29,421 nt of DNA from Streptosporangiaceae bacterium. Lineage in GTDB: Bacteria; Actinomycetota; Actinomycetes; Streptosporangiales; Streptosporangiaceae. The notes beneath the pieces were generated by a model. That model had not been told where the DNA came from and did not search any database. It worked only from the letters and a program-made list of their open reading frames with translations. A program made the translations under genes and the position numbers. This document shows positions 8,670 to 26,828 of the stretch, piece after piece (the first letter of the stretch is position 1; each line of letters begins with the position of its first letter). Location of the stretch: assembly GCA_025934635.1 (NCBI GenBank), contig JAICWX010000080.1, positions 1-29,421 on the forward strand. Reading direction: 5' to 3'.

Positions 8670-8700
8670 ACAGGCACGATGAGATGGGGGGACAACCCGA

Positions 8701-9513
8701 GTGAGCTTTTCTTGCGAGCACGGGGCGGAATGCCACGCCGGGAACATAGTGTCCATGGCTTCGGCACCGGAGGCGTCGCGGGCCTGGCTGCTGGTCGAGC
8801 AGCCCGGGCCGTGGCCGCACGAGGCGGTCGGCGCGGCCATGCCCGCGCCGCTGGCAGCGCTGCTGACCGCGGCCGATAACTCCGGCATCCGGGTGCAGCT
8901 GATCCGCAAGCCGGGGCGCCGGCGGGTGAGCGACGCGCGCACCGTGTTCCTGGGCTGGACCGCGGGCCGCGAGCCGTGGCTGCGGCAGGCCACGGTGTCC
9001 GCGTCGGCTCCGGAACTGACCGAACGGGACCTGAAGGACCTGGCCGCCGGGAGCGCGCCGTCGTTCGGCGCGCCGTCCGGCGAGCCCGTTTTCCTGGTCT
9101 GCACGCACGCCAAGCGCAGCCTGTGCTGCTCGCGGTACGGGGTGCCGCTGGCCCGCGCCCTGGCCGTCCGGCATCCCGGTCAGGTCTGGGAGACCACCCA
9201 CGTGGGCGGCCACCGGTTCGCCGCCAACCTGGTGATCCTGCCGCACGGGCTGTTCTACGGCCCGGTCGGCCTGGAGACGGCCACCGCCGCGATCGGCGCG
9301 TACCAGCGCGGTGCGGTCGCGCTGGACCGTTACCGGGGCCGGGCCGGGACGCCCCGGCCTGGCCAGGAGGCCGACCACGCCCGGCTGGCCTCGGCCGGGT
9401 CGCTGCCGGTGGAGGGGCTCGCCTTAGGTTTCGTGCTGGAACGTGGGTGCGGTAGCGGTGAGGATGGCGGTCCGCGGTTCGGTCCGCCATGTTTCGCCGA
9501 TCTCGGCGGCTAG
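8701..9513 (+). CDS. Sucrase/ferredoxin-like (thioredoxin-fold 2Fe-2S) protein, atypical C-terminus
   Basis: Member of the sucraseferredoxin-like family, proteins with a thioredoxin-like 2Fe-2S fold. Recognisable pieces are the N-terminal SCEHGAEC, SRAWLLVEQPGPW (26-38), FLVCTHAKRSLCCSRYG (131-147, Cys 134, 142 and 143) and VWETTHVGGHRFAANLVILPHGLFYG (163-187). It starts 31 bp after the decarboxylase, in the same direction, so it probably belongs to the iron-regulated operon. There it could act in electron transfer to ferric siderophore; that role is inferred. The GTG start has only a GGGGGG stretch upstream. The last 30 residues (after about residue 241) are antisense to the next gene and look unlike the family, so the native end may be lost. 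Confidence 0.82.
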   Translation: MSFSCEHGAECHAGNIVSMASAPEASRAWLLVEQPGPWPHEAVGAAMPAPLAALLTAADNSGIRVQLIRKPGRRRVSDARTVFLGWTAGREPWLRQATVSASAPELTERDLKDLAAGSAPSFGAPSGEPVFLVCTHAKRSLCCSRYGVPLARALAVRHPGQVWETTHVGGHRFAANLVILPHGLFYGPVGLETATAAIGAYQRGAVALDRYRGRAGTPRPGQEADHARLASAGSLPVEGLALGFVLERGCGSGEDGGPRFGPPCFADLGG

Positions 9514-10116
9514 GACGGCGATGAGGTCGGGGACGTCTTGTGCGGCCTCGTCGTGCAGGGCCTCGGCCACGATGAGGACGGTGCTGGTTGTTTCGCGGAC
9601 CGCGGACCGGCCGCTCTGCCGGTTGGTCCAGCGGCGGGCGTGTGCCTGGCCGGCCTGGTCGGCGAAGATGACCTCGCCGGGCATGGGGTGCTCGACCTCG
9701 CCGCCGAACGTCAGGTAGTCCTCGTCTCCGTTCGCGTAGCGGACCTCGAGCGGCCAGGCGAGCCGGACCGCGTCCAGGGCGGCGACCGGGATGGCGAAGG
9801 CCAGCGAGACGGCGTTGCACAGGTCCACCAGCGGGTGCAGCCGGGGCAGGGCGCCTTCCTTGCGGAAGCGGCGAAGCAGCGACTCCGACGCGCAGCGGTA
9901 CTGGGTCGGCTTCAGGCCCATCGCGGCGAAGGCACGCCGCCAGGCCTGGATCTCGGGGAGTTCGCTCTCCGGGCCGCTGGCTAGTTTTTTCTGGGCTGCT
10001 TGCTCGTAGGGCCCGGTCTTCGGGTCGGCTTCGACGGTGATGTTGTTTGCGTAGATGACGCCGGGGACGAGGGCCGGGAAGTCGCGCCAGATGGCGGCGT
10101 CGTGCTGGAAGTGCAT
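9424..10116 (-). CDS. B3/B4 tRNA-binding domain protein (PheT-related)
   Basis: 230-aa free-standing B3/B4 domain, the domain that edits mischarged tyrosine in the beta subunit of phenylalanyl-tRNA synthetase. Features are an early GVIYANNITVEAD, the central EIQAWRRAFAAMGLKPTQYRCASESLLRRF, LPRLHPLVDLCNAVSLAFAIPVAALD and the later DEDYLTFGG. Free-standing members are thought to edit aminoacyl-tRNA or bind free amino acids. Its ATG directly abuts the stop of the EamA gene (TAG then ATG, no gap), with GGAAGGGGA upstream, so the two form an operon. The 3' end overlaps the sucrase/ferredoxin-like gene by 90 bp. Together with EamA and MocR it suggests amino-acid or related metabolite handling. Confidence 0.85.
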   Translation of the reverse strand: MHFQHDAAIWRDFPALVPGVIYANNITVEADPKTGPYEQAAQKKLASGPESELPEIQAWRRAFAAMGLKPTQYRCASESLLRRFRKEGALPRLHPLVDLCNAVSLAFAIPVAALDAVRLAWPLEVRYANGDEDYLTFGGEVEHPMPGEVIFADQAGQAHARRWTNRQSGRSAVRETTSTVLIVAEALHDEAAQDVPDLIAVLAAEIGETWRTEPRTAILTATAPTFQHET

Positions 10117-11103
10117 CTAACGGGTCCCCTTCCGGAAGCCGAGGGTCAGGCCGGCCGCGACGACCGCCATGCCCGCCCAGACCAGCGGCCGGGGCGCCGG
10201 GCCGCCGAGCAGCACCCCGCTGCCCGCGGCGGCGACCGGGGCGATCCCGGTGAGCAGGCCGGCCCGGCTGGCGCCCAGGCGGCTGACACTGGAATACCAC
10301 AGGACGAAGGCGGCCGCGGTGACCGCGACCGCGAGGTAGCCGGCCGCGAGCCAGTCGGGCGGGGATAGTTCGGTGACGGCGGCCGGGCCTTCGTGGACGA
10401 CCCCGATCAGGGCGAATATCGCGGTGGCGAGCCAGGTGGCGTGCACCGATACGCCCCACGGGCCGTGACTTTTCAGGACGGGGATGGCGAGCAGGGTGAA
10501 CGCGGCCTCGCACCCGAAGACGACGGCCGCCCAGGCCAGGCCGGTCCCGTCGGCCCGGCCGAGCCCCTGGACCAGGGCGGCGCCGGCTGTGACGACCAGC
10601 GCGGCGGCGATGGCTTTCGCGCGTGGCCGGCGGGTGCCCTCCAGCAGCGGGCCTGCTATTGCCAGCACGGCGGGGACGCAGGCCACGGCCACGCCGAGGA
10701 CGGCGGGCTCGGCGTGGCCGGATCCCTCGACCAGGGCCAGGTTGAACAGGACCAGGCCGGTCACGGCGATGCCGGTTAGCCACAGCCATTCGGTCCCGCG
10801 CGGCCAGGTGAGCTTCCGGCCGGTGAGCTTGGCCAGTGCGACCAGGAGCAGGCAGGCCGCGCCGTAGCGGACCGCTTCGGCGGTGAACACCGGCGCCCCG
10901 GCCAGCACTGTGGAGACCGCCACGCTGCCGCCCACGAAGACCATGCCGGTGGCGCCCGCGGCCACCCCGGCCGCCGTACCGCGGCGCGGTTCGGGGACGA
11001 GGCTGCGGCGTGGTCCGGGGACGACGCTGTGGTGCGGTCCGGGGACGACGCTGTGGCGCGGTCCGATGACGGCGGGAAGCTCGGGGGTGCGCAGACCAGG
11101 CAT
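10117..11103 (-). CDS. EamA-family (DMT superfamily) transporter
   Basis: Inner-membrane exporter of the drug/metabolite transporter superfamily, about 328 aa. Roughly ten hydrophobic segments form two EamA halves, the first from about GTAAGVAAGATGMVFVGGSV, the second from GTGLAWAAVVFGCEAAFTLL. The C-terminal LYSSV-like segment reads AFVLWYSSVSRLGASRAG. The ATG at 11103 (MPGLRTPELP) was chosen because the frame upstream overlaps the divergent regulator promoter. The N-terminus before the first helix is a 24-bp tandem repeat giving PGPHHSVV-type octapeptides, unusual for the family. It is divergent from a MocR regulator, a common arrangement in which the regulator controls the transporter, and is followed by the B3/B4 gene. 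Substrate not shown; an amino acid is likely from context. Confidence 0.88.
   Translation of the reverse strand: MPGLRTPELPAVIGPRHSVVPGPHHSVVPGPRRSLVPEPRRGTAAGVAAGATGMVFVGGSVAVSTVLAGAPVFTAEAVRYGAACLLLVALAKLTGRKLTWPRGTEWLWLTGIAVTGLVLFNLALVEGSGHAEPAVLGVAVACVPAVLAIAGPLLEGTRRPRAKAIAAALVVTAGAALVQGLGRADGTGLAWAAVVFGCEAAFTLLAIPVLKSHGPWGVSVHATWLATAIFALIGVVHEGPAAVTELSPPDWLAAGYLAVAVTAAAFVLWYSSVSRLGASRAGLLTGIAPVAAAGSGVLLGGPAPRPLVWAGMAVVAAGLTLGFRKGTR
10988..11059. repeat. 24-bp tandem repeat, three units, in the EamA gene
   Basis: Three consecutive units of the type GGTCCGGGGACGACGCTGTG plus four bases (10988-11011, 11012-11035, 11036-11059), with a partial fourth. They encode three octapeptides in the N-terminal cytoplasmic part of the transporter. 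Copies two and three differ by a single base, pointing to recent slippage. Confidence 0.85.
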
Positions 11104-11168
11104 GACGCCACGGTATGAACGATATGGTCTAGCGAACAGGACCATGGAGACCCGTTTATAGTGGACCA
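11104..11168. promoter_or_regulatory. Divergent promoter region of eamA and mocR with GGACCA repeats
   Basis: The 65-bp gap holds a direct repeat GGACCA (11139-11144 and 11163-11168, 24 bp apart) and an inverted pair ATGGTC (11124-11129) / GACCAT (11140-11145). MocR-family regulators often bind paired direct or inverted repeats, so these are candidate operators. TATAGT at 11157-11162 is seven bases before the regulator ATG and no Shine-Dalgarno is present, so mocR mRNA is probably leaderless. Confidence 0.55.
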
Positions 11169-12638
11169 ATGCCTGGGGCCGACTTTCTTCAGCTCAGCCC
11201 GCAGGACGCGCCGGCCCGCGGGCTGACCGGCTGGCTGGCCGACGCGATCAGGGCCGCCATCATGGACGGGCGGCTGCGGGCCGGGACGCCGCTGCCGGCC
11301 ACCCGGCTGCTGGCCGGCGACCTGGGCGTCTCGCGCGGCCTGGTCGTCGAGGCTTACCAGCGGCTCGCCGACGAGGGCCTGGTCAGCGGGCGGCCGGGGA
11401 CCGGGACGCGGGTGCTGGGCGTGTCCCGCCCGGCACCGGGGGTTTCGCCGGGGGTTTCTGAGGCGCCACCGGGGCCGCTGCTGGTGCCGCCCGGCTGGCG
11501 GGAGCGGGCGGAGATCGACCTCTCCCCCGGCGTCCCCGACCTGTCCGGGTTTCCCCGCGCCGCCTGGCTGCGCGCCGAGCGGCTGGTGCTCGAGCGGGCC
11601 AGCGTGGCCGACCTGGGCTACGGCGACCCGCGCGGCGCCGCGGCGCTGCGCACCGAATTGGCGGGCTGGCTGGCACGGACCCGCGGGCTGCGCACCGGGG
11701 CCGGCGACATCATCGTCGTCACCGGGGTCGCGCAGGCCCTGGCCCTGCTGGCCCGGGTACTGGGCCGGCACGGGCACCGCGAGATCGCGGTCGAGGACCC
11801 GGGCTCGCGCGGAGCCCGGGACGACCTGGCCTACTGGGGCCTGCGGCCGGTGCCGGTGCCGGTGGACGAGCACGGGCTGGACATCAGCGAGCTGGCCCGC
11901 GGCGATGCCCGGGCGGTGCTGCTCACCCCGGCGCACCAGTTCCCGACCGGGGTGGTGCTGGCCCCGCAGCGCCGCCGCGACCTGCTGGACTGGGCGGCCG
12001 GGGCGGACGCCGTGATCGTCGAGGACGACTACGACGCGGAGTACCGCTACGACCGGGCCCCGGTCCCGGCGCTGCACGCCTCGGCGCCCGGCCTGGTCGC
12101 CTACGCGGGCAGTACCTCCAAGACGCTGGCCCCGGGCATGCGGCTGGGCTGGCTGATCCCGCCGCCGGGGCTGCACGCCGACCTGGTCGAGGCCAAGTAC
12201 GCCAGCGACCTCGGCAGCCCGGCCCTGCCGCAGCTGGTGCTGGCCCGGCTGATCGCCAGCGGCGAGCTCGAGCAGCACATCCGGCTGGTCAGGAAGCGGC
12301 AGCGGAGCCGGCGCGACGCTCTGCTGCTGGCGCTGCGCGAGCACCTGCCGGCCGCCCGGGTGCAGGGCATCGCGGCCGGGCTGCACCTGCTCGTCACCTT
12401 TCCCGGGCTCTCCGGCGCGGGCGGTCTGGCCGGGACGGGCGGTCTGGCCGGCGCGGGCGGTCTGGCCGGCTCCGACGCGGATCTGGCCGAGGCGATCCTG
12501 GCGACCGGAGTCCTCGTGCACCCGCTGTCCTGGCACCGCCAGCGTCCCGGGGTGCCGGGGATCGTGCTGGGCTACGCCGCGCACACCCCCGGCCGGCTGC
12601 AGGAGGCGGCCCGGCGCATCGCGCGGGTCCTTACCTAG
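11169..12638 (+). CDS. MocR/PdxR-family transcriptional regulator (GntR-type HTH fused to aminotransferase domain)
   Basis: DNA-binding regulator of the MocR subgroup of the GntR family, 489 aa. A winged helix-turn-helix spans about 17-82 (GLTGWLADAIRAAIMDGRL...LPATRLLAGDLGVSRGLVVEAYQRLADEGL). A class I aminotransferase fold follows from about 115, with YGDPRGAAALR, EDPGSRGARDDL, HQFPTG, VEDDYDAEYRY and the PLP lysine K318 in GSTSKTLAPGMRLGW. It likely senses PLP or an amino-acid adduct and controls the divergent eamA-B3/B4 operon. ATG at 11169 has no ribosome site and follows a -10 box directly, so leaderless translation is likely. Near residues 415-432 a three-fold 18-bp repeat encodes GGLAGT/GGLAGA units in what is normally a short loop. 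Confidence 0.93.
   Translation: MPGADFLQLSPQDAPARGLTGWLADAIRAAIMDGRLRAGTPLPATRLLAGDLGVSRGLVVEAYQRLADEGLVSGRPGTGTRVLGVSRPAPGVSPGVSEAPPGPLLVPPGWRERAEIDLSPGVPDLSGFPRAAWLRAERLVLERASVADLGYGDPRGAAALRTELAGWLARTRGLRTGAGDIIVVTGVAQALALLARVLGRHGHREIAVEDPGSRGARDDLAYWGLRPVPVPVDEHGLDISELARGDARAVLLTPAHQFPTGVVLAPQRRRDLLDWAAGADAVIVEDDYDAEYRYDRAPVPALHASAPGLVAYAGSTSKTLAPGMRLGWLIPPPGLHADLVEAKYASDLGSPALPQLVLARLIASGELEQHIRLVRKRQRSRRDALLLALREHLPAARVQGIAAGLHLLVTFPGLSGAGGLAGTGGLAGAGGLAGSDADLAEAILATGVLVHPLSWHRQRPGVPGIVLGYAAHTPGRLQEAARRIARVLT
12415..12468 (+). repeat. 18-bp tandem repeat, three units, in the mocR gene
   Basis: Three 18-bp units of the form GCGCGGGCGGTCTGGCCG (12415-12432, 12433-12450, 12451-12468), the middle one differing by two bases. 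They encode a Gly/Leu/Ala-rich loop in the aminotransferase-like domain and keep the frame. Confidence 0.85.
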
Positions 12639-12692
12639 GGGGCGTCGCGGGCGGCGACTGACGGCATGGATGGAGCATCGATGGCGCTGGCG

Positions 12693-12717
12693 CGACATTG
12701 ATGGAGCATCAATGTCG
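12693..12717. terminator. Hairpin between convergent mocR and lapA-like genes
   Basis: CGACATTGATG (12693-12703), loop GAG, then CATCAATGTCG (12707-12717): a perfect 11-bp stem. A degenerate copy of the same motif (CATGGATGGAGCATCGATGG, 12665-12684) precedes it. It lies 55 bp after the mocR stop and 96 bp past the stop of the opposite gene. No T-run follows, as is usual in high-GC actinomycetes, so it may act as a bidirectional terminator. Nothing else is seen in 12639-12812. Confidence 0.55.
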
Positions 12718-14809: not shown

Positions 14810-15538
14810 GTGGCCAAGGGACGCCCGGCGGGGCTGGTCGAGGACGAGGACGCGCGCGCCGCCCGGCTGCTGGACGCGCAGGCCAAGGCGGCCGAGCTGT
14901 TCGCCGCCATCGAACCGCGCAGCATCATCGTGCCCGGCGCGCGCGAGGGCGGGGCGAGCGACGCGATCCGGGATCTGGCGGCCGAGATGTTCGGGGTGGA
15001 CCGGCACTGGCACAAGCGGATTGTCCGGGCCGGGCCCAACACCCTCGAGCCGTACAAGGAGAACCCGCCGGACCGGGTGATCGGCGACGACGACATCGTG
15101 TTCTGCGACTTCGGGCCGGTATTCGAGGAGTGGGAGGCCGACTTCGGCCGGACCTACGTGCTCGGCGGCGACCCGGTCAAGCTCCGGCTGCGGGACGACC
15201 TGCCGGTCATGTTCGACGCGGGGCGCCGGTTCTTCGCCGGGCACCCGGACATCACCGGCGAGCAGCTGTTCGCGTTCATGGTCGGCGCGGCGGAGGCGGC
15301 GGGCTGGGAGTTCGGCGGGACGATCGCCGGGCACCTGGTCGGCCAGTTCCCGCACGAGAACATCGACGGCGACAAGATCGAGTCCTATATCGCCCCCGGC
15401 AGCGACCGGCCGATGCGCCGGCGGGACGCCAACGGCCAGCTCTGCCACTGGATCCTCGAGGTCCACCTGGTGGACACCGAGCGGCAGATCGGCGGCTTCT
15501 TCGAGGAACTGCTGGACCTGGGCCTTGAGCCGGCTTAG
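14810..15538 (+). CDS. M24 family metallopeptidase-fold protein
   Basis: Short (242 aa) pita-bread-fold protein of the methionine aminopeptidase/creatinase group without the usual N-terminal domain. The expected metal ligands are present: D100 in VFCDFGP, D111 in EADFGRTYVL, H175 in TIAGHLVGQFPHE, and the glutamates in ILEVHLVD (E217) and near the C-terminus. Likely a Xaa-Pro-type peptidase or a creatinase-like hydrolase; the substrate cannot be read. GTG at 14810 is set by the strong AAGGAGGAG just upstream. It forms a two-gene unit with the DJ-1/PfpI gene and ends 12 bp from the convergent GH20 gene. Confidence 0.87.
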   Translation: MAKGRPAGLVEDEDARAARLLDAQAKAAELFAAIEPRSIIVPGAREGGASDAIRDLAAEMFGVDRHWHKRIVRAGPNTLEPYKENPPDRVIGDDDIVFCDFGPVFEEWEADFGRTYVLGGDPVKLRLRDDLPVMFDAGRRFFAGHPDITGEQLFAFMVGAAEAAGWEFGGTIAGHLVGQFPHENIDGDKIESYIAPGSDRPMRRRDANGQLCHWILEVHLVDTERQIGGFFEELLDLGLEPA

Positions 15539-15550
15539 TCCCGCACGGCG

Positions 15551-17167
15551 TCAGTCCCAGTTGACGGTGGAGGCGCGGAAGTACTCCAGGCCGTCCTGGG
15601 CCCACAGGCGGCCGTGCCGGGCGAGCCGGTCGCGATGGGCGGGCCAGGCACCGGACCGCGGGGCGCTCCACCCCTTGTCGGCGACGCCGGGCAGCCGGGG
15701 CAGCAGCAGGAAGGTCAGGTCGTCGAAGCCGGTGATGGTCTCGGCCCAGATCGCGGCCTCGACGCCCGCGACCTGCCCGGCCCGGCCGGGTCCGAGCGCC
15801 TCCCCCGGGTCCCAGCCGAACGACTCGGCGACGGTCCTGGATGCATAGACCCGCAGGCCGAGACGGCTGAGCCGGTCCGCCTGGGCGGCGTCGCCGAGGG
15901 CGGCAGCGGCCGGCGGCTCGGCGTACGGGACGTCGAGGTAGCAGTAGGGCAGCGGCGAGACGATCACGGGCACCGACACCGACACCGCCGCCTCGACATC
16001 GCGGCGGGCCAGCGCGAGCTCCGCGTCGACCTGCGCCCGGACCGGCGGCGCCACGTCCGGCGGAAGGTCGAAGCCGGTGAGCCAGAACTGGACGACGTCA
16101 TCCGGGCGCAGGCCTGCCCGCGCCGTCTCCTGCCAGCCCAGCGGCCGCCGTCCAAGGCTGCGGACCAGGCGGCGCAGTCGCCGGACGTACGACATGTAGG
16201 CCTCGTCCGGCATCGCGCGCGGCTCGTCCGCGCCGATGTGCAGGTACGGCCCCGGGAAGATCGCGGCCACCCCGGCCAGCACCTGCTCCATCAGCCCGAA
16301 CGTGGCAGGCAGCTCCGGGTCGAGCCACACGGCGTGGCGCGGGTGGCCGGGCAGGACCTCGTAGTCGACGTCGTTGCGGCCGGTGTCCAGTTCCGGGTGC
16401 AGCCGCATGAGCGCGGTCGCGTGCCCGGGCGTGTCGATCTCGGGAACGATCGTGACGAAGCGGTCCGCGGCGTAGGCGGCCAGCGCCCGGAGTTCGTCCT
16501 CGCTGTAGAACTCGTCGCCGGGCTCGGGCGAGGCCGCGGTACCTGATCCTGGGGCTGGCCGGCCCATCGGGAGCCGCCAGGCCTGGTCGTCGGTCAGGTG
16601 CAGGTGCAGCACGCTGAGCTTGTAGAACGCCAGCAGGTCGACGACCCGCCGGAGCTCCCCGGCGGTGAAGAAGGTGCGGGCCACGTCGAGCGACAGGCCG
16701 CGCCAGGCGTACCGCGGCGCGTCCAGGATCCGCGCGGCCGGCACCCGGATCTCCGCCGCGGCGCCGGGCGGCGCCGTGGCCGCCAGCTGGATCAGCGTGG
16801 TGAGGCCGCGCGCGACGCCGGCCGGTTCGGCCGCGCGCAGGACGACCCGGCCGGCCCCGATGAGCAGCGCGTACCGTTCGTCGGCGGGGTCACCGCCGGC
16901 CGGCGCGAGGCCGGCCGGCCCGGGGAGCTTGTCCAGTTCGGCCGCGGCCCCGAGTTCGATGGTGACGGACGGCCCGGCCGGCACCGGGTCGACCAGCGCC
17001 GGGACCAGGTGCACGCCGGTGCGCCGGGTGAACTGCGCACAGAATCGCTCGACGACCGGCGTGATACCGGGATCGGCGTACGTAACCGCCGTGTCCGGCG
17101 GGAAGACAAAACCGGGCCCGTTCGCCACGTCGAACTGGAACGGCGCCGGTATGACCGCGTTCTCCAC
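15551..17167 (-). CDS. Beta-N-acetylhexosaminidase, glycoside hydrolase family 20
   Basis: Hydrolyses terminal N-acetylglucosamine or N-acetylgalactosamine residues by substrate-assisted catalysis, 538 aa. An N-terminal GH20b-type domain (about 1-140) is followed by the TIM barrel: RYAWRGLSLDVARTFF (152-167), LHLHLTDDQAWRLP (187-200), VPEIDTPGHATA (241-252) and the catalytic Asp314-Glu315 pair in YLHIGADEP. QETARAGLRPDDVVQFW lies late in the barrel. No signal peptide is visible, so it probably acts on imported or recycled wall fragments. The GTG at 17167 starts eight bases after the small upstream gene stops; no clear ribosome site, so coupling is likely. Confidence 0.92.
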   Translation of the reverse strand: MENAVIPAPFQFDVANGPGFVFPPDTAVTYADPGITPVVERFCAQFTRRTGVHLVPALVDPVPAGPSVTIELGAAAELDKLPGPAGLAPAGGDPADERYALLIGAGRVVLRAAEPAGVARGLTTLIQLAATAPPGAAAEIRVPAARILDAPRYAWRGLSLDVARTFFTAGELRRVVDLLAFYKLSVLHLHLTDDQAWRLPMGRPAPGSGTAASPEPGDEFYSEDELRALAAYAADRFVTIVPEIDTPGHATALMRLHPELDTGRNDVDYEVLPGHPRHAVWLDPELPATFGLMEQVLAGVAAIFPGPYLHIGADEPRAMPDEAYMSYVRRLRRLVRSLGRRPLGWQETARAGLRPDDVVQFWLTGFDLPPDVAPPVRAQVDAELALARRDVEAAVSVSVPVIVSPLPYCYLDVPYAEPPAAAALGDAAQADRLSRLGLRVYASRTVAESFGWDPGEALGPGRAGQVAGVEAAIWAETITGFDDLTFLLLPRLPGVADKGWSAPRSGAWPAHRDRLARHGRLWAQDGLEYFRASTVNWD

Positions 17168-18994: not shown

Positions 18995-19028
18995 CGCGGT
19001 GGCCCTGGACTGGGCCGACATCGGTTAA
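18978..19028 (+). pseudogene. 16-codon gene stub, probable truncated gene start
   Basis: GTG at 18978 with GGAAGGGA seven bases upstream opens MISTTDAVALDWADIG and stops at TAA 19026-19028. It overlaps the end of the previous gene by 17 bases, a typical coupled start. The stub then runs into the last codon of the convergent STAND gene. It looks like the N-terminus of a longer protein cut off by a rearrangement near 19020. Chance cannot be excluded at this length. Confidence 0.4.
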
Positions 19029-20992
19029 TTGGTCACGGTGTTTCGCTTCCAGCCGAGCTGCCTGGCGGCCTCGCGATGCGGGGGCGGCAGCGCCGGGTCG
19101 GTGGCGTCGATGGCCTGGCCCGCGAGTTCCCGGGCCGCGGCCTTGTCGCCGTCGAGCCAGGACACCCGGGCCGCGTACCACAGGACCGGCCCGCTGCGCG
19201 GGGCAGCGGCGAGCGCTTCCTCGACTTTGACCCGCGCCCGAGCCATGTCACCGGTTTCCGCCAGGGCAAGCCCGCGAGCCGCCTGGGTGGACGGCCCGGC
19301 GTGAGCGGCTACCCGGTCAAGATCGAGCAGGGCGGCCCGGGCATCGCCCAGATCCGCGAGGATCTCGCCGCGTGCGCGCAACGCGGTGAGATCCCCTCCT
19401 TCTTTTTCCAGCACCGTGGTGAGTACCGCGACCGCGCCGCGGCCCTGGCCGAGCTGCCATAGCGTCATGGCCAGCTCCATCTGCAGAAGGCGATCGTTGG
19501 GCAGGCGGTCAAGGGCCGAGCGGAACTGGCGGACGGCGCTCATCAGCTCACCTTGGGCGACCAGGCTCCGCCCGACCGCGGCCAGCTGACGAGCTACCGC
19601 GTCGGCGTCACGTACCGCTTCGTAGAAATTGGCGGCTTCCCGGTATCGCTCCTCCGCGTCTTTGGGCTTCTCCCGCTCAATGGCGAGGTTCCCGAGCAGC
19701 GAGGCGACCTCGGCTCGCGTTCTCAGGTCGGTGTCAGCCGAGGTGCGCATGGTGTCGCGGGCATAACGCTCGGCCAGATCGAACTCACCGAGCACCAGAG
19801 CGCGCCCGGCCGCCTTCAGGTAGTCCGCTGGCCCGGTCACCGGCGGGGCCTCGTCGGCGGCCTGCCGGACCGGCTCGATGAGGCGGTCGCTCAGCAACTC
19901 GTACCAGCGCGCCCCCTTTCGCCGCTCGGTCGTCAGGAGATGCCGGTCCTCGAGCGCTCGCGCCACGGCGCTGAGCATGCCTGCCGTCTTGGTGGCGCCC
20001 TCGTAAGCCGTTCCCCGCGTCCCCAGATCGGTGATGAAGGTTCTCTGCAGCCAGGTCCGCAATCGCGTCACCGGCACTTCGTGATCCTCAGCCACCGCCG
20101 CGATGACCCGGCCGCAGTGGCTGGCCAGGGCGGTGTCCGCATCGCCGTACCGGAGGGTCTCCCGCCGGGTGATAAGGCTGATGGCCGCCGGCAGCGAGTC
20201 CCATAGCCGTGCACAGACCACCTGGAGGAGGAAAGGCTCGACGTAGTCGCAGGTGACGTAGTGCTCGCCAGCTCCGGGCGGTTCGATCCGGCTGGTCTGC
20301 AGATCCGTGACGATCGCCTCGGCCGCTCCCTCGCCATACGGCCGCAAGGCGGTGCGGGCAGGTCCGGACACTGCCTCGATGGCATCCTGCCGGTTCAAGG
20401 GCTTGACCTGGTGCCTGACGCCAGCGCCCAGCACGTCGGCAATCATGTCGGCGGATTCCGCACGCACGACGAGCAGCAGGTGCAGCCGGGGCTCTTTCTC
20501 CATCGCCTCGGCCAGCTCGGCCAGGAACTTCCGGCGGTGGGAGGAGCGCAGGCCGGAGTCGGCGGCCAGCTCCTCCAGCTGGTCTATCGCCGCGAGGACG
20601 GGGCCGTCACGACGGCCGGCACAGGATCGCACATGGTCAAGAACGGTGCGGCCAGCCAGCCGGGAGACCGCCTCGCTGGGCGACCATGAACGAAGTACGG
20701 CGAGCGTGTACGGATTGTGCGGGGCAAGCGCAGCGAACGGGAACGTCTCACCGTAGGACAGACGGCCGAGCGGGAGAACAGTCATGCCAGCAGCGGTCAT
20801 TAATGGGAAGACTCCGGCATTCACCAGAGATGTCTTGCCGCTGGCCACGCCACCAAGAGCAACGGTGAGACGATTTTCCCGCCATAGCCGTGCGAGGCTG
20901 GCCGCTTGCGCTGACCGCCCGAAGAACCAGTGGTGCTCGGCAGGCTGAAAGGGCCGGGGGCCGGGGTATGGCCTTCCCGCGCTGTTGTTTAC
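19025..20992 (-). CDS. nSTAND-type NTPase with C-terminal TPR repeats, start codon missing
   Basis: P-loop NTPase of the STAND class, proteins used as regulators or defence sensors. Read in one frame it begins with the hallmark PYPGPRPFQPAEHHWFFGRS, then Walker A LGGVASGKTSLVN and Walker B VLAAIDQLEELA, followed by the winged-helix region and, from about FDLAERYARDTMR, several TPR-like repeats (SLLGNLAIEREKPKDAEERYREA, LAAVGRSLVAQGELMSAVRQFRSAL). Between the upstream stop (21068-21070) and Walker A there is no ATG, GTG, TTG or CTG in frame except a GTG inside Walker A (20848), which would destroy the domain. GAGGA lies eight bases before GTA at 20992, so a lost GTG start is suspected; the start here is set on that basis. 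Possible pseudogene or frameshift. Confidence 0.75.
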   Translation of the reverse strand, partial: VNNSAGRPYPGPRPFQPAEHHWFFGRSAQAASLARLWRENRLTVALGGVASGKTSLVNAGVFPLMTAAGMTVLPLGRLSYGETFPFAALAPHNPYTLAVLRSWSPSEAVSRLAGRTVLDHVRSCAGRRDGPVLAAIDQLEELAADSGLRSSHRRKFLAELAEAMEKEPRLHLLLVVRAESADMIADVLGAGVRHQVKPLNRQDAIEAVSGPARTALRPYGEGAAEAIVTDLQTSRIEPPGAGEHYVTCDYVEPFLLQVVCARLWDSLPAAISLITRRETLRYGDADTALASHCGRVIAAVAEDHEVPVTRLRTWLQRTFITDLGTRGTAYEGATKTAGMLSAVARALEDRHLLTTERRKGARWYELLSDRLIEPVRQAADEAPPVTGPADYLKAAGRALVLGEFDLAERYARDTMRTSADTDLRTRAEVASLLGNLAIEREKPKDAEERYREAANFYEAVRDADAVARQLAAVGRSLVAQGELMSAVRQFRSALDRLPNDRLLQMELAMTLWQLGQGRGAVAVLTTVLEKEGGDLTALRARGEILADLGDARAALLDLDRVAAHAGPSTQAARGLALAETGDMARARVKVEEALAAAPRSGPVLWYAARVSWLDGDKAAARELAGQAIDATDPALPPPHREAARQLGWKRNTVTN

Positions 20993-21086
20993 CGTGCCGG
21001 TCCTCGTCTCAACCGCCTCATCCCACGCTGCTGGCGCTTCCGCGTGCCTGCGTAAAGCATGAAACGCCTAATGACAACGTAAAATC

Positions 21087-21125
21087 AGGCGAGCGCCGTC
21101 CGAGCGCACATCGCCCTGCTCGCCT
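21087..21125 (-). terminator. Hairpin after the candidate precursor peptide gene
   Basis: On the minus strand AGGCGAGC is followed by a 23-base loop and GCTCGCCT (arms 21118-21125 and 21087-21094), then GATTTTACG. The first arm begins on the last base of the peptide stop codon. It resembles a terminator or attenuator that would make the small peptide mRNA more abundant than the downstream STAND gene. Confidence 0.5.
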
Positions 21126-21292
21126 TAATCCACATTAGCGTTAAAACTAGCGTAGGCGCTGTCGTGAGCGGAAGCCAGAACATGCTTGATCGCCTTGCCG
21201 AGGGCCGGCGCAAGATCTTTTTGCAGGAGCACCTCAAGATCGAATTCACTGAAGTCGGCCAAGCGACCGTCGCTGACAGGGTCGTGGTTCAT
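21125..21292 (-). CDS. Candidate FxSxx-like RiPP precursor peptide (55 aa)
   Basis: A short gene with ATG at 21292 and a strong GAGGAG four bases upstream. It encodes a helical acidic leader (MNHDPVSDGRLADFSEFD, then LEVLLQKDLAPALGKAIKHVLAS) and a C-terminal end AYASFNANVD. FxSxx-COOH precursors are short, have a leader of this type and end in Phe-x-Ser-x-x; here the end is Phe-Asn-Ala-Asn-Val-Asp, a variant with Ala for Ser and one extra residue. Tyr-Ala-Ser and Phe-Asn-Ala/Asn are the aromatic-x-x patterns that FxsB-type radical SAM enzymes can crosslink. It lies divergent from the FxsT-type gene and upstream of the STAND gene. Coding is well supported by the ribosome site; the precursor role is inference. 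Confidence 0.6.
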   Translation of the reverse strand: MNHDPVSDGRLADFSEFDLEVLLQKDLAPALGKAIKHVLASAHDSAYASFNANVD

Positions 21293-21318
21293 GATGCTCC
21301 TCGCTGGCCGCCATGATC

Positions 21319-21370
21319 AATCCGCGAAGTCGCCGAGACGCGCTCGGCGAGGCACGCTACTCCGCGGATT
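21319..21370. promoter_or_regulatory. Nested inverted repeats in the divergent peptide/FxsT control region
   Basis: Outer arms AATCCGCG (21319-21326) and CGCGGATT (21363-21370) enclose an inner hairpin CGCCGAG-acgcg-CTCGGCG (21331-21349). The structure is 27 bp upstream of the peptide ATG and faces the FxsT-type gene on the other side. It may be a regulator site or an mRNA structure. The remaining 21371-21540 is AT-rich with no other gene seen. Confidence 0.5.
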
Positions 21371-21540
21371 CATTACTTCACAAGTACCTGTTTTGAGGCC
21401 GCCTGTCGAGATCTGTTCAGTGAAATGTTTTAAATCTGGAAACATGAGTAACATAAGGCACTCGACGCAGCGTAATGCTCATCTCGAATGACGCAAGATC
21501 ACCGCTGCCAGAATTGCAGCCGCGAGCTTACGATGGGTTC

Positions 21541-24093
21541 ATGACGGTTCCGGATTCGCCATCAAGCCGCAGGCATGTGCCTGAGGTATGGGGACAAGTC
21601 CCGCAGCGCAATAGGAACTTTACCGGCCGGGAAGACATCCTGGCCGAGCTCTGGATGCGACGGGAGCAGCCGGCGGGAAAACGGGTCACGGCGGTGGTGC
21701 CGAGCGATCCCTTGCCGCGAGCGCTGCAAGGACTTGGCGGTGTCGGCAAGACGGCCGTCGCTATCGAATACGCCCACCGGCATCAGGCCGACTACGACCT
21801 GGTCTGGTGGATCCGCGCCGATCAGCTTCCGCTCATCCGTTCCTCGCTGGCGGCCCTAGCCGAGCGACTCGGGCTCGACGCGGCGCGAGCCAGCGGAATC
21901 GAGTCGGCGGCCACGGCGGTTCTCGAGGCACTTCGCCGCGGCGAGCCTTACAGCCGCTGGCTGCTGATCTTCGACAACGCGGACGAGCCAGAAGAACTCC
22001 TCGACATCATCCCGCAAGGTCCGGGCGACGTGCTGATAACGTCGCGAAACAACCGCTGGCAGTCTCGATTCGACACCGTGCAGCTGGACGTGTTCGCCCG
22101 CGCCGAGAGCAAGGAATTCCTGATGAAGCGAGCTCCGAGGGAGCTCAGCGAATCAGATGCGGACCGGGTGGCCCACAAGCTCGGCGACCTGCCGCTGGCG
22201 CTGGAACAGGCTGGCGCCGTCCAGGCCGAGGCCAGCATGCCCGTCGACGAGTACCTCCGCTTGATCGACGAGCAGGTGACTCAGATCATGGCCGAGGGTA
22301 AGTCAGTTGAATACCCGATGTCCATGACGGCCGCGTGGCAGGTCACCGTGGCTGCCCTGAACGACCGGCTCCCGGAAGCTCTGAAGCTCTTGCGCTGCTG
22401 CGCGTTCTTCGGCCCGGACCCCATACCGCGCGACGTGTTCCGCCGCGGCACCAAGGCCACCGAGACCCGGATCGGGGAACTGATCGAAGATCCCATCCAG
22501 CTGGCCCGGGCCGTCCGCGAACTCGGACGGTTCGCCCTGGTGAAGATCGACAAGCGGACGCTCTCGGTCCACCGGCTCATCCAGGCCCTGCTCCGGGACG
22601 AACTCGATGAGGTCGAGCAAGCCGACTACCGGCACGAGGTTCACATGATCCTCGCCGCGGCCGCACCAGCGACACCGGATGACAGCAACTTGTGGCCGCG
22701 CTACGACGAACTGGTCGCCCACGTATCCAATCCAGAGACCCAGCTCGCCCAGTGCCGGGAGCCTGCTGTCCGGGCCTTCGCCCTCGATGTCGTGCGCTAT
22801 CTTTTCCTCTCCGGCGACCTCGCTTCCAGCAGGGCCTTCGCTCAGCAATTCATCACCCAATGGAGTCTGGATTCTGGCCCGGAGCATCCTAACGTGCTCG
22901 ACGCCAAGCGCCATCTCGGTAATGCGCTCCGGCAGCTAGGCCGATATCGTGAAGTCTACGACCTCACCGAGGAGACACTAGGGCAAAGTCAGCGCATACT
23001 CGGCGATGACAATCGCCTGACCTTGGTCCTGCGTAACGCTTTCGGCGGAGACATGCGCGCTCAGGGGGACTTCTTCGGGGCGCTGAAGCACGACGAAGAG
23101 AGCCAGCACCTTCAGGAAGCTGTTTTCGGGGGAGAGAGCCCGCAGCTGTACCGAGTACTGAACAACCTGGCCAGCGACTACGGCCGCACGTGTCAGTACG
23201 ACAAGGCAAGAAAACTCTTTCAGAACCTCTACACCGCCATGAGCAAGGCACGGGATGGAGTATCAGCCACCGAGATGCTCTCGACGTGGACTGGACTGGC
23301 CTGGGTCGTGCGATGCTCGGGTAGTTATGCCGAGGCGCGCGACGTCAGCGAAGACGCCCGGGAATACGGAATCGAAAAGCTGCAGCCAGAGCATTACGCG
23401 ACTTCGCGATCTTCTATAGGCTTCTCTATTGCCCTTCGGCTCACTGGAGCCGCAAACGACGAAGCGCTGGAAATAGCCAGAGAAACCTATCATCTCTGTC
23501 AGCAGGCACGCGGGGACAGACACCCAGATACGCTGGCCGCTGCCGTCAACCTGACGAATATCCAGCGGAGCGTGGGCCAAATCGACGAAGCACTCGCGCT
23601 GAGCGAGCAAACGGTGGCTCGCTATCCCGAGGTCTTCGGCCCGGATCACCCGTACGTCTACGGCTGTATCGGGAACCACGCCCTGCTGCTACGTCTGAGG
23701 AAGCGCCCCGGCGAAGCACGCCAGCTCAACGAGCGGGCTCTAGCGGGCCTGGATGACAGGCTAACGCGAGACCACGACTACACCCTCACGGTAGCGATGA
23801 ACCTCGCCAGCGACCTCGCCGAACTGGGCGAGACCGCGCAAGCCAGCACGCTGGGCCAGGATACGCTGGGCCGGCTGCGCCGGATGCTGGGAGCCGACCA
23901 CCCGATCACCATCGCCTGCGCGGCGAACCTGGCTATCGACCTCCGCCGGACAGGAGCCGAGGAGGAAGCAGCCAAGCTGTCGGCCGAAGTGGCCAGCCGG
24001 TACGCCGACACGCTCGGCTCTGACCACCCTGATGCGATGGCAGCGGCAGCCGGTCAGCGGATCAACATCGACTTCGATCCCCCGTTCTTCTGA
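21541..24093 (+). CDS. fxsT: FxSxx-COOH system tetratricopeptide repeat NB-ARC protein (FxsT type)
   Basis: 850-aa STAND protein of the type found with FxSxx-COOH peptide systems. PEVWGQVPQRNRNFTGRED is the characteristic opening. The NB-ARC domain follows with Walker A GLGGVGKTA (about 64-72), YDLVWWIRAD, Walker B WLLIFDNAD, LITSRNNRW, the GDLPLALEQAG motif and a winged-helix region (LSVHRLIQALLRDEL). The C-terminal half is a run of NPHA-style TPR repeats, such as ALSEQTVARYPEVFGPDHPYVYG, TLGQDTLGRLRRMLGADHPITI and the last SDHPDAMAA, ending INIDFDPPFF. ATG at 21541 (MTVPDSPSS) was chosen because it begins close to the conserved part; 21475 is the alternative. It is divergent from the candidate peptide gene and ends four bases from the convergent HExxH gene. 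Confidence 0.85.
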   Translation: MTVPDSPSSRRHVPEVWGQVPQRNRNFTGREDILAELWMRREQPAGKRVTAVVPSDPLPRALQGLGGVGKTAVAIEYAHRHQADYDLVWWIRADQLPLIRSSLAALAERLGLDAARASGIESAATAVLEALRRGEPYSRWLLIFDNADEPEELLDIIPQGPGDVLITSRNNRWQSRFDTVQLDVFARAESKEFLMKRAPRELSESDADRVAHKLGDLPLALEQAGAVQAEASMPVDEYLRLIDEQVTQIMAEGKSVEYPMSMTAAWQVTVAALNDRLPEALKLLRCCAFFGPDPIPRDVFRRGTKATETRIGELIEDPIQLARAVRELGRFALVKIDKRTLSVHRLIQALLRDELDEVEQADYRHEVHMILAAAAPATPDDSNLWPRYDELVAHVSNPETQLAQCREPAVRAFALDVVRYLFLSGDLASSRAFAQQFITQWSLDSGPEHPNVLDAKRHLGNALRQLGRYREVYDLTEETLGQSQRILGDDNRLTLVLRNAFGGDMRAQGDFFGALKHDEESQHLQEAVFGGESPQLYRVLNNLASDYGRTCQYDKARKLFQNLYTAMSKARDGVSATEMLSTWTGLAWVVRCSGSYAEARDVSEDAREYGIEKLQPEHYATSRSSIGFSIALRLTGAANDEALEIARETYHLCQQARGDRHPDTLAAAVNLTNIQRSVGQIDEALALSEQTVARYPEVFGPDHPYVYGCIGNHALLLRLRKRPGEARQLNERALAGLDDRLTRDHDYTLTVAMNLASDLAELGETAQASTLGQDTLGRLRRMLGADHPITIACAANLAIDLRRTGAEEEAAKLSAEVASRYADTLGSDHPDAMAAAAGQRINIDFDPPFF

Positions 24094-24097
24094 TCGC

Positions 24098-25417
24098 TCA
24101 GCCGCGCTCACCGTCAGGGACGGGGCCGTTCGCCGCCTCCCAGTCGGCGAGGTGCTTCGCTGCCCGGTGCCGGGCCAGGGACTCCGCTTCGGGCGAGACG
24201 TGTTCTTCCCGCCAGGTATCCAGCGTCTTGGCCATGCCGTTGACGAAGTCCAGGCCGGTGGCAGTGAGATGCCCGCTCGACTGGAGAGTGCTTACCACCC
24301 GCCTGGCCGCCTCGCGCCACCGGAGGAACTCGGTCTCCGCCCGCAATCTGACCTTGCCCGAAGCCAGCCGGCACTGTCGTCGCCAGAATCCGCTGACGCC
24401 AAGGAAGGCGTAGGCCCCCTGCAGCAGGCCGCCCACCGGTCGCGGGTCGTCCCGCCACGGCGCGTAGTAGCGCCTGCCGTCGTCGGGCAGGGTCAGCGCT
24501 ACGACGTCGAGCAGCGCGGATAGCTTCAGATGCTGCATCTCATGCGCGAACGTCTCCGCGCAGGTGTACGGGTCCGGCGGCTCCGACAGGGCGACCGCGC
24601 CGAATGTGGCCGACGAACTCGAACTGATATGCCCGCCCGGGACGGAGACGAGCGGGACGACGACCGTCACCGCCTGGAGGACTTCCGCGGCGACGTCGGA
24701 GTGATCCGATGCCAGCAGCGGCCACGCCTGCCTCAGGGCATCGCCGAACCTGGTCATGGCGGCCGGACTCAGCCGGGGGGCCAGGTCGGTCGAGGACGGC
24801 ATGCGGAATGAATCGAGGTCATCGATAATCACGTCCAGCGCGCCGACCCGGACGCGACGCAGTCCCTGCCAGCCCGGCGCGTCGCTGTGCACGTCGGCTG
24901 GAATCGTCACTCGCCCTTGCGCGGAGAAGACCTCTGCGTGCGGCTGGCCGCTGCGAGCGACGGCGGCGTCCCCGTATACTCTCGCCCGCCCCAGCGACGG
25001 CAGCATGACAGCTCCGTCTACCGCCTCCACCTCGATCTCGGCCGCCACTCCCGCCCGGATCGCCGCTGCGGCAGCTATCGCACTCAGCCACCCGGGGTCC
25101 GCTCCAGCGAGTTCGGTTCGTTCCTGAGATGGCCCCATAGCGCGCAGCGCCCATGCTCCCACCGAAGGATGCATGATTACCTGGTCGGCGACGGCCGGAT
25201 GCTGCCGCTTCACCTCCGCCAGGAGGGAAAAACCCCGGCGAGCGAGACGTTGCTGCCGGTGGCCCGCGTCTTCGGCCTGACTGACTACTCCGGCCAGCAT
25301 GGTGACGTGCTTGCTGTAGCGCGCCCGGGCGAGGTCACGGATGGCGTCGGGGCCGCCTCCGCCCGCCGCGAGAGCATCGAATGCAGATCGCGGGATCGAG
25401 TGGTAATTCGAGTTCAA
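24098..25417 (-). CDS. HExxH-motif peptide-modification protein (putative 2-oxoglutarate-dependent beta-hydroxylase)
   Basis: 439-aa protein of the HExxH family encoded beside FxsB-type maturases (in some genomes fused to them). The opening HSIPRSAFDALAAGGGGPDAI and ARYSKHVTML are typical. The metal motif is HEMQH (292-296) in CAETFAHEMQHLKLSALLD, followed by YYAPWRDDPRPVGGLLQGAYAFLGVSGFWRR. Family members have been proposed as iron/2-oxoglutarate peptide hydroxylases rather than proteases; that assignment is from general knowledge. The start is TTG at 25417, overlapping the radical SAM stop as TTGA, so translation is coupled. It likely acts on the same precursor as the radical SAM enzyme. 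Confidence 0.8.
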   Translation of the reverse strand: MNSNYHSIPRSAFDALAAGGGGPDAIRDLARARYSKHVTMLAGVVSQAEDAGHRQQRLARRGFSLLAEVKRQHPAVADQVIMHPSVGAWALRAMGPSQERTELAGADPGWLSAIAAAAAIRAGVAAEIEVEAVDGAVMLPSLGRARVYGDAAVARSGQPHAEVFSAQGRVTIPADVHSDAPGWQGLRRVRVGALDVIIDDLDSFRMPSSTDLAPRLSPAAMTRFGDALRQAWPLLASDHSDVAAEVLQAVTVVVPLVSVPGGHISSSSSATFGAVALSEPPDPYTCAETFAHEMQHLKLSALLDVVALTLPDDGRRYYAPWRDDPRPVGGLLQGAYAFLGVSGFWRRQCRLASGKVRLRAETEFLRWREAARRVVSTLQSSGHLTATGLDFVNGMAKTLDTWREEHVSPEAESLARHRAAKHLADWEAANGPVPDGERG

Positions 25418-26631
25418 TCAGCGACCGTTTTCTCAGAATGCTTGATGATATCAGCTCGCATGACCTGGTAGATATGACGGATGAGGCGCATGAGATCCGG
25501 GCAATAGACTGAAGGGTTAGCAAATCCATTACCAGGCCGGTACCGGTGTGCATAGAGGCCGCCGCCGCACACGTTCTTGATAGCGCAAGCCTGGCATTCG
25601 GCACACAGCGCTCCCGGTCCGAGCTGCCGGGCTACCATCCCGGGAAGGAGCATCGCCGCGTCGAACTCGTCATGCGCGACATGGAGGTCGGTATGAGCCG
25701 CCCCGGAGAAAGCGATCTTCAGCGTGTCAGCCTGCTCGATGGCACCATCCGTCTCGATGACGATCATCTGCGATGACGCCAGCCCCACTCCCTCGGCCGA
25801 AGACTTAGCACCCAGAATCAGGCTCATGATGCCCTCAAATAGCCGGATGCCAGGAGCTGGCGATTTATACCAGTGATCGAAGATCGTGATCAGCCAATCG
25901 GCATAAGGTGTCTCGGCGGCATCAGGGATCCGGCCCGGCGGCGGGGATTCCCATGTCCCGTGCGGCAGCAGGAAATCGATTTTCGGTGGATCATAGGAAG
26001 CAAGTGCCTCATATGTCGCGAGCGGATCATTGCGGAGATCTATCGTGCAGAGCAAGCCCGCGAAGAGGTGCCGGAACGACGGCTGCATTAATCTATGCAC
26101 TCCCGCCGAGGCCGCGGCATGGCTCCCGCGGCCACTGGGAAACCGCCGGTGGCGATTGTGGGCCTCGGAATCACCGTCAAGGCTGACACCCACCCGGATC
26201 CCGAGGTCGCAGAAAAGTCGCAGGTACGATTCGTCAAGGCCGACGGCGTTAGTCTGGATGCGCGCGTTCACCTCCACATCCGGGCCGGCCGCTTTTCTGG
26301 TTACTTCCACAATGTGGGAAATGAGGTCACGTCCGGCGAGGAGGGGCTCCCCGCCGTGCAGTATCAACGCGACGCTCGGGAGTCCGTGCGCCCGGGCATG
26401 CTCTCCAATCCGCTGGGCCGTGCACTCAGCAATCTCCGGGGACATCCGCCGGGGCTGGCCACGCCAGGACTGGTCGGCCATCTCGTACATATAGCAGTAG
26501 TCGCAGGCCAGATCGCACCTGCTGTGGATCTTAACCACGAAATCACGGAAGGGAATGGGCCGCCAACCGCTGGCCATGAGAGCTGAAACGTCAAGGGTCA
26601 ACGGCCATTCAAGCGTGGGCTTCGGCCCCAT
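25414..26631 (-). CDS. fxsB: FxsB-type radical SAM/SPASM peptide maturase
   Basis: Radical SAM enzyme that installs a cyclophane crosslink on a ribosomal peptide; 405 aa from the ATG at 26631. FRDFVVKIHSRCDLACDYCYMYEMADQSW carries the radical SAM cluster motif CxxxCxxC (C39, C43, C46) in the form seen in the FxsB family. GGEPL (93-97) binds S-adenosylmethionine, and SLDGDSEAHNRHRRF is a further core motif. The SPASM-domain cysteines are C343, C346, C349, C355 and C377 (CAECQACAIKNVCGGGLYAHRY...YCPDL). No clear ribosome site is seen; upstream in-frame codons and a GTG nearby are alternatives. The HExxH gene overlaps its end, and a small unknown gene lies 26 bp upstream in the same direction. 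Confidence 0.9.
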   Translation of the reverse strand: MGPKPTLEWPLTLDVSALMASGWRPIPFRDFVVKIHSRCDLACDYCYMYEMADQSWRGQPRRMSPEIAECTAQRIGEHARAHGLPSVALILHGGEPLLAGRDLISHIVEVTRKAAGPDVEVNARIQTNAVGLDESYLRLFCDLGIRVGVSLDGDSEAHNRHRRFPSGRGSHAAASAGVHRLMQPSFRHLFAGLLCTIDLRNDPLATYEALASYDPPKIDFLLPHGTWESPPPGRIPDAAETPYADWLITIFDHWYKSPAPGIRLFEGIMSLILGAKSSAEGVGLASSQMIVIETDGAIEQADTLKIAFSGAAHTDLHVAHDEFDAAMLLPGMVARQLGPGALCAECQACAIKNVCGGGLYAHRYRPGNGFANPSVYCPDLMRLIRHIYQVMRADIIKHSEKTVAD

Positions 26632-26657
26632 AATGTGATTAAACCACACGGAGCTAG

Positions 26658-26828
26658 TTAGTAAAGTTCCGCGGCCATACGCTTCGCCACATCCGTCACT
26701 GCACCAGCTAGGTTCGCATCCACATGCCAAAGAACTCTATAATCACATGCAACTTCGTTGCTGTGCCTGCTCACCTGGCACGCAAATTGGAAGATGTAAT
26801 ATTTTTCTCCTCCTGCCTCATCCGACAC
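26658..26828 (-). CDS. Small protein of unknown function directly upstream of the radical SAM gene
   Basis: 56 aa from GTG at 26828 (an in-frame TTG at 26852 would add eight residues). The sequence MSDEAGGEKYYIFQFACQ, then YRVLWHVDANLAGAVTDVAKRMAAELY, has an even, protein-like composition and ends in an amphipathic helix. The stop is 26 bp before the radical SAM ATG on the same strand, so it may be the first gene of that operon. No ribosome site and only about half G/C at third positions weaken the case. It could be an alternative precursor or an accessory protein; it does not end in FxSxx. Confidence 0.4.
   Translation of the reverse strand: MSDEAGGEKYYIFQFACQVSRHSNEVACDYRVLWHVDANLAGAVTDVAKRMAAELY

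Follow-up and report, generated by a model that had tools for sequence, protein, structure and literature searches.

The window, by which we mean the whole stretch of 29,421 nt analysed here, contains a short minus-strand gene at 21125..21292, which reads from an ATG at 21292 to a stop codon at 21125 and encodes the 55-aa peptide MNHDPVSDGRLADFSEFDLEVLLQKDLAPALGKAIKHVLASAHDSAYASFNANVD, ending AYASFNANVD. A ribosome-binding site, GAGGAG, was read on the same strand at 21297..21302, 4 nt 5' of the ATG, in agreement with the first-pass annotation, which had reported the gene with this position, strand, length and ribosome site. From its reading frame, its matches to profiles of related peptides and its synteny, the gene is assigned as a candidate precursor peptide gene in the FxsA slot, the place that small peptide genes occupy in related loci. 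Residues 1-46 (21155..21292, minus strand) align with the N-terminal parts of such slot peptides and form the putative leader, with a predicted border to the core. The core, Y47-D55 (YASFNANVD; 21128..21154, minus strand), was delimited by alignment with the end FNSFNSSI of a clade of relatives and by a core matrix test. Two tandem aromatic-x-x sites are proposed within it, Y47-A48-S49 and F50-N51-A52. A codon bias check found a low third-position GC in the window core; across 64 slot peptides, leader and core did not differ in third-position GC (Wilcoxon p 0.27).

The precursor ORF is divergent from the gene for FxsT, and the gene of an nSTAND1-TPR protein is next downstream on its own strand. 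The genes for FxsB and an aKG-HExxH protein, both on the minus strand, precede it beyond FxsT. The divergent gap between FxsT and the precursor contains an imperfect, nested inverted repeat (21316..21373) with arms of 18 nt that are 83% complementary, possibly an operator. An RNA hairpin before the precursor ATG was considered and rejected (fold z -0.62; 52 of 200 shuffles as good).

The FxsB-type radical SAM/SPASM maturase is encoded at 25414..26730 (minus strand; TIGR04269, 473.6 bits, cut-off 370) and matches ChlB (PDB 9gm3) with an E value of 2e-73. MscB carries IPR026335, which we take to be the FxsB family. The true start of FxsB is uncertain; the listed ORF opens with TTG, and an internal ATG was rejected as the likelier start because the closest relatives align 5' of it. 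PADLOC returned only viperin-like matches for this protein (33.5 and 17.5 bits), which we attribute to the radical SAM fold. The aKG-HExxH-type protein (24098..25417, minus strand; motif HEMQH) scores 172.8 bits with TIGR04267 (cut-off 40). It aligns across most of its length with PDB 22nu (E 8e-35), deposited as a radical SAM core domain-containing protein, and with ChlH (PDB 8s5f; E 3e-9) over the HExxH motif plus a downstream PWRxDxRP stretch. FxsT (21475..24093, plus strand) combines an NB-ARC domain (AP-ATPase, PF00931) with TPR repeats (TPR_12) and scores 918.6 bits with NF040586 (cut-off 300). These three matches above curated cut-offs confirm that the peptide gene shares its locus with an FxsB-type maturase, a HExxH protein and an FxsT. 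It had also been placed between two STAND NTPase genes with an FxsT-type gene in addition; both STAND flanks are present, but FxsT is itself one of the two.

The other is the nSTAND1-TPR protein encoded at 19025..20848 (minus strand; PF20703, 63.9 bits). Its frame is open upstream to 21067 (20849-21067, minus strand) and there includes the expected N-terminal motif PYPGPRPFQPAEHHWFFGR, without any ATG, GTG or TTG. Most relatives have their start codon 45-54 codons upstream of the first codon of the listed ORF, and an ACG at 20995 lies near that place in the window. An atypical start, a sequencing error or decay may explain the lack of a usual start codon, and the three are indistinguishable from the sequence. 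Elsewhere in the window, the region 2529-8669 encodes two IucA/IucC-FhuF synthetases above Pfam cut-offs together with ligase-like and PLP decarboxylase-like proteins that match below curated cut-offs, and is probably an NIS siderophore cluster judging by these gene products. Two large adjacent minus-strand ORFs of 714 and 640 aa (8645-12698) matched nothing in NCBIfam at E 0.01 or in Pfam at E 0.001.

A scan of genome contigs for FxsB gave 95 relatives; the best 80 of these 95 were kept as loci, and the four large proteins of the window were mapped onto them. The recurrent layout is FxsB, the HExxH gene (absent in some loci), FxsT on the opposite strand, a gap, and then usually nSTAND1, with a small peptide gene in the gap that lies on the FxsB strand and has a ribosome site. 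Twelve of the 80 loci without FxsT beside FxsB and three cut by contig ends were left out of the slot census. Among the 65 eligible loci, a small peptide was picked in the slot in 62; the peptides were picked by eye, their start codons by ribosome-site score and eye. As for the remaining loci (L054, L071 and L078), L054 has a profile match in the slot and L078 an ORF containing RSFDNK. An nSTAND1 gene lies on the FxsB strand less than 3 kb past FxsT in 54 of the 65 (L017 has it elsewhere), and 39 of the 65 hold a HExxH gene. Many slot peptides combine a leader of the type LIDLSxLSLxxL...SALxxALxxVL with a C-terminal aromatic-x-S/N/A core, and in the alignment the window peptide fits this type along its whole length; those of HExxH-less Actinomadura loci form a group with a different leader. 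Locus L004 carries three tandem precursor genes (14892-16675) with the differing cores FNSFNSSI, FNTYSSSI and FNSFGSSI. Two Nocardia loci with HExxH genes, L070 (9345-9518 and 9771-9944) and L079 (9568-9852), in which no FxsT was matched, encode precursor-like peptides upstream of FxsB; these end SFNSFIDAGPTE and KFNSFIGSSV, each with two aromatic-x-x motifs in a row.

Profiles of the slot peptides were built without the window peptide and compared with the 231 window ORFs of 30-400 aa and with 2000 shuffles. With the 64-peptide profile, the window peptide scored 20.7 bits, the next window ORF 6.9 and the best shuffle 8.9; with a 42-peptide profile (the peptides of HExxH-holding loci and that of the unassigned L082) the values were 23.2, 5.9 and 10.5 bits. 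A clade profile of 117 proteins, namely the 120 listed relatives minus P0006-P0008, gave 35.4 bits for the window peptide; the best of 2000 shuffles reached 10.2 and the next window ORF 1.8. It has been necessary to weigh the alternative that the 55-aa frame is open by chance or encodes some unrelated small protein, the true precursor lying elsewhere. Such a reading would fit the lack of a curated family match and the single-sequence search, which yielded just three homologues (95, 91 and 71% identity). It is opposed by the slot synteny and the profile tests, by the failure of any other window ORF of 30-400 aa to score with the slot profiles, and by inspection of the small ORFs upstream of FxsB in the window, among which nothing alike was seen by eye; we regard it as highly improbable. 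The search for paralogues and other precursor ORFs covered the 29,421-nt window. We therefore conclude that the 55-aa gene is very probably the precursor gene of the FxsB-type RiPP of this locus, as far as sequence comparison can tell, and the role first proposed from the neighbouring genes is strongly supported.

The close relatives of the peptide are annotated only as hypothetical proteins, and the window peptide does not differ from its orthologues P0006-P0008 at any of the residues 37-52 (HVLASAHDSAYASFNA). At E 0.001, orthologues were found in none of the 341 genomes of the family of G001. At E 0.1, one of nine genomes of the genus of G003 and one of eight of the genus of G002 matched; these were G003 and G002 themselves, which carry other slot-type peptides. 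Membership in the FxSxx-COOH family was approached through curated models. The profile search that the first-pass annotation had suggested came out negative: the window peptide matched nothing in NCBIfam or Pfam at E up to 10, TIGR04268 (cut-off 28 bits) included. The strict F-x-S-x-x C-terminus is absent, the peptide ending F-N-A-N-V-D. Ten relatives were run against NCBIfam, of which nine came from the slot and one is encoded upstream of FxsB in L079: two, at 39.6 and 39.0 bits, exceeded the TIGR04268 cut-off of 28, one fell just below it (27.7), five matched more weakly (14.3-19.4 bits), and those of L001 and L015 gave no match. Since these intermediate slot peptides match TIGR04268, the window peptide is linked to the FxSxx-COOH family; the first-pass annotation had remarked that its end resembles FxSxx with Phe-x-Ala in place of Phe-x-Ser. 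By sequence, it is a diverged homologue that falls outside the strict FxSxx-COOH type. PF27839 is precomputed for some relatives; the local model missed two proteins listed with it (P0073 and P0117) and is therefore unusable as a membership test.

A 16-peptide profile, with the window peptide and P0006-P0008 among its seeds, retrieved 436 relatives at E 1 from 5.8 billion proteins. Core residues were counted in the best 120 of the 436, including P0006-P0008, with the last core aromatic (F) as anchor. This set leans towards the profile seeds and its figures therefore describe this clade, not all FxsA peptides: position F-3 is Phe in 107, Tyr in 9 and Ser in 4, hence aromatic in 116 of the 120; F-1 is Ser in 110, Gly in 4, Trp in 4 and Thr in 2; and the third motif residue is Ser in 98, Ala in 11, Asn in 10 and Thr in one. 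The residues counted as following number four in 77 of the best 120, five in 42 and eight in one. The typical end is thus FNSFNSSI, frequently with one residue more, and YAS-FNA-NVD of the window is built on the same pattern, with Tyr, Ser and Ala at the three core places in all of P0006-P0008. Given the aromatic at F-3 and the Ser at F-1 of the relatives, YAS-FNA fits a pair of tandem aromatic-x-x sites, the second of which has Ala instead of Ser. In a matrix of 45 distinct clade cores, the window core ranks first among 20,920 eleven-mers from the window ORFs of 30-400 aa; its score was reached by 92 of 200,000 shuffles of the core letters, or 446 of 200,000 with Phe held in place. The proposal that the end defines a variant core was too strong, because each of its odd features recurs in relatives: Ala occupies the third place in FNASI, FQASI, FNAIV and FQAYI, the C-terminus is longer by one residue in SSIS, SSIG and FNNSID, and a first-site Tyr is likewise seen in others. 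Within the best 120 of 436, only their combination is particular to the window peptide and its orthologues.

Across the FxsB loci, the first aromatic site is less regular. Phe or Tyr stands three residues before the core aromatic in 6 of the 42 peptides of loci with HExxH (three of L004, one each of L005 and L010, and the window peptide) and in 3 of the 23 of loci without it; beyond the clade few peptides have an aromatic at F-3, and in these it is followed by Ala-Arg (FAR-F in L010, L040, L052 and L056) and not by x-Ser or x-Thr. A phylogeny of FxsB was built from the 61 rows for which a peptide had been picked, excluding L004 and L035, whose aligned stretch read through a stop. The window groups with L002 and L001 (99/92), and at the next level L005 and L006 join them (100/99); four of these are Streptosporangiaceae or Nocardiopsaceae MAGs. 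Its near relatives L001 (CNGFNNSID), L002 (SNSFQASI) and L006 (NNGFNNFIS) lack the first site, and L005 (FNSFSSSI) has it, as has L004, which is absent from the tree. L001, L002 and L006, together with the low count among HExxH-locus peptides, speak for the modification of F50-N51-A52 only, with Y47 either neutral or serving recognition and the tandem pattern incidental. The near-constant aromatic and Ser of the clade and the conservation of Tyr and Ser between the window peptide and the three homologues close to it are against it, and we consider it a serious possibility at rather less than even odds. Hence, the two sites predicted by the first-pass annotation are backed by the clade comparison but not by the near FxsB relatives without the first site. 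That FxsB installs one crosslink in the peptide is likely from the sequence comparisons; a second crosslink falls just short of an even chance.

The HExxH gene is missing from L016, L022-L030, L034, L036, L037, L040, L042-L044, L047, L049, L052, L055, L056 and L060, and its absence corresponds to two changes on the FxsB tree. In these loci FxsT begins 9-139 bp after FxsB, and therefore no HExxH gene was overlooked there. Their assigned peptides have Asn as the third core residue in 23 of 23 cases, with Asp before Asn in 20. The peptides of loci with HExxH (n=42) have Ser in 22, Asn in 13, Ala in 6 and Gln in one, and Ser or Ala at the third place was seen only in loci with HExxH. This may point to a link between a third-place Ser or Ala and the presence of a HExxH partner; with two events, the association may serve as a lead. 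The partner itself could be a peptidase; cleavage would release the C-terminal peptide, which would be the toxin or signal, in line with a proposal made for FxSxx systems in PMC7159879. The zincin-like HExxH motif of the partner is compatible with such a role, and in PMC12636437 the aKG-HExxH enzyme PflC is reported to cleave the backbone oxidatively and, without leader, hydrolytically. The aKG-HExxH enzyme PflC is thus a precedent for cleavage within this enzyme type. The same paper describes the relatives fused to radical SAM domains as hydroxylases that depend on aKG, the NCBIfam name of TIGR04267 is aKG-HExxH-type peptide beta-hydroxylase, and the window protein aligns with ChlH over HExxH and PWRxDxRP, all of which make a peptidase unlikely. 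Hydroxylation of the peptide by the HExxH protein is suggested by sequence similarity, and we advance it tentatively, at somewhat below evens.

We propose the following scheme, to which we assign a probability of about 80%. FxsB would recognise residues 1 to about 46 and form three-residue cyclophanes, in which an aromatic ring is joined to the beta carbon two residues on; the first crosslink would be at F50-N51-A52 and a second perhaps at Y47-A48-S49. The HExxH enzyme would then hydroxylate one residue in the crosslinked core (candidates N51, N53 and D55) or trim the core. The mature peptide would act with the flanking STAND NTPases, one or both of which (FxsT, the nSTAND1 protein) would sense it as a ligand or signal. 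This last step draws on the gene neighbourhood and on the toxin or signal proposal in the accessible part of PMC7159879, and a STAND ligand is the less likely outcome for the mature peptide. As for the chemistry, the available text of PMC11002830 describes linkage of Phe to the Ser beta carbon by MscB, of His to the Ala beta carbon by HaaB and ScaB, and of Tyr to Ala by ScaB once the substrate His is mutated to Tyr. On these precedents the F50-A52 link is chemically plausible; no direct precedent for a Phe-to-Ala link was found in that text, and Y47-S49 would be nearer to the known Phe-Ser case. A more far-reaching reading is that a Streptosporangiaceae-type clade makes self-produced peptides that carry two adjacent cyclophanes, one at Tyr-Ala-Ser and one, built onto an unactivated Ala methyl, at Phe-Asn-Ala, and that are hydroxylated by the HExxH enzyme and act as ligands of the STAND pair in an NLR-like conflict system; all of this together is quite improbable.

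The analysis proposes a candidate substrate for an FxsB/HExxH pair to which the curated models applied here had assigned none. It also exposes a clade with two adjacent aromatic-x-x motifs (116 of 120, best of 436), which was not found in a literature search that is incomplete for these families and which may be in print. The tandem-core clade is a test case for one FxsB acting twice, for the Phe-Ala link and for the task of the HExxH partner. The place of the precursor between two STAND NTPases bears on why such peptides are tied to STAND NTPases.

The FxSxx-COOH precursors (TIGR04268, FxsA) occupy the same slot beside FxsB, HExxH and FxsT, and the window peptide can be aligned with slot peptides of which two match TIGR04268. 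It differs in having no match to the model, Ala for Ser, one residue more, and a second aromatic-x-Ser motif ahead of FNA. The window maturase resembles ChlB and the HExxH protein ChlH (PDB 9gm3 and 8s5f). Unlike in ChlB/ChlH and 22nu, radical SAM and HExxH proteins are here encoded by separate genes, with another precursor and with STAND NTPases present. The triceptides described in the available text of PMC11002830 (those of MscB, HaaB, ScaB, XncB, OscB, YxdB and YhhB) likewise have an aromatic-x-x motif beside a SPASM radical SAM maturase, whereas the window, known here from its genes, has two directly adjacent predicted motifs, YAS-FNA. The actinobacterial AP-ATPase peptide-processing systems share with it, according to the accessible part of PMC7159879, an FxSxx-type peptide, a radical SAM-SPASM protein, a zincin-like HExxH protein and an AP-ATPase with TPRs; the window adds an nSTAND1-type NTPase after the precursor, and its peptide is not strictly FxSxx.
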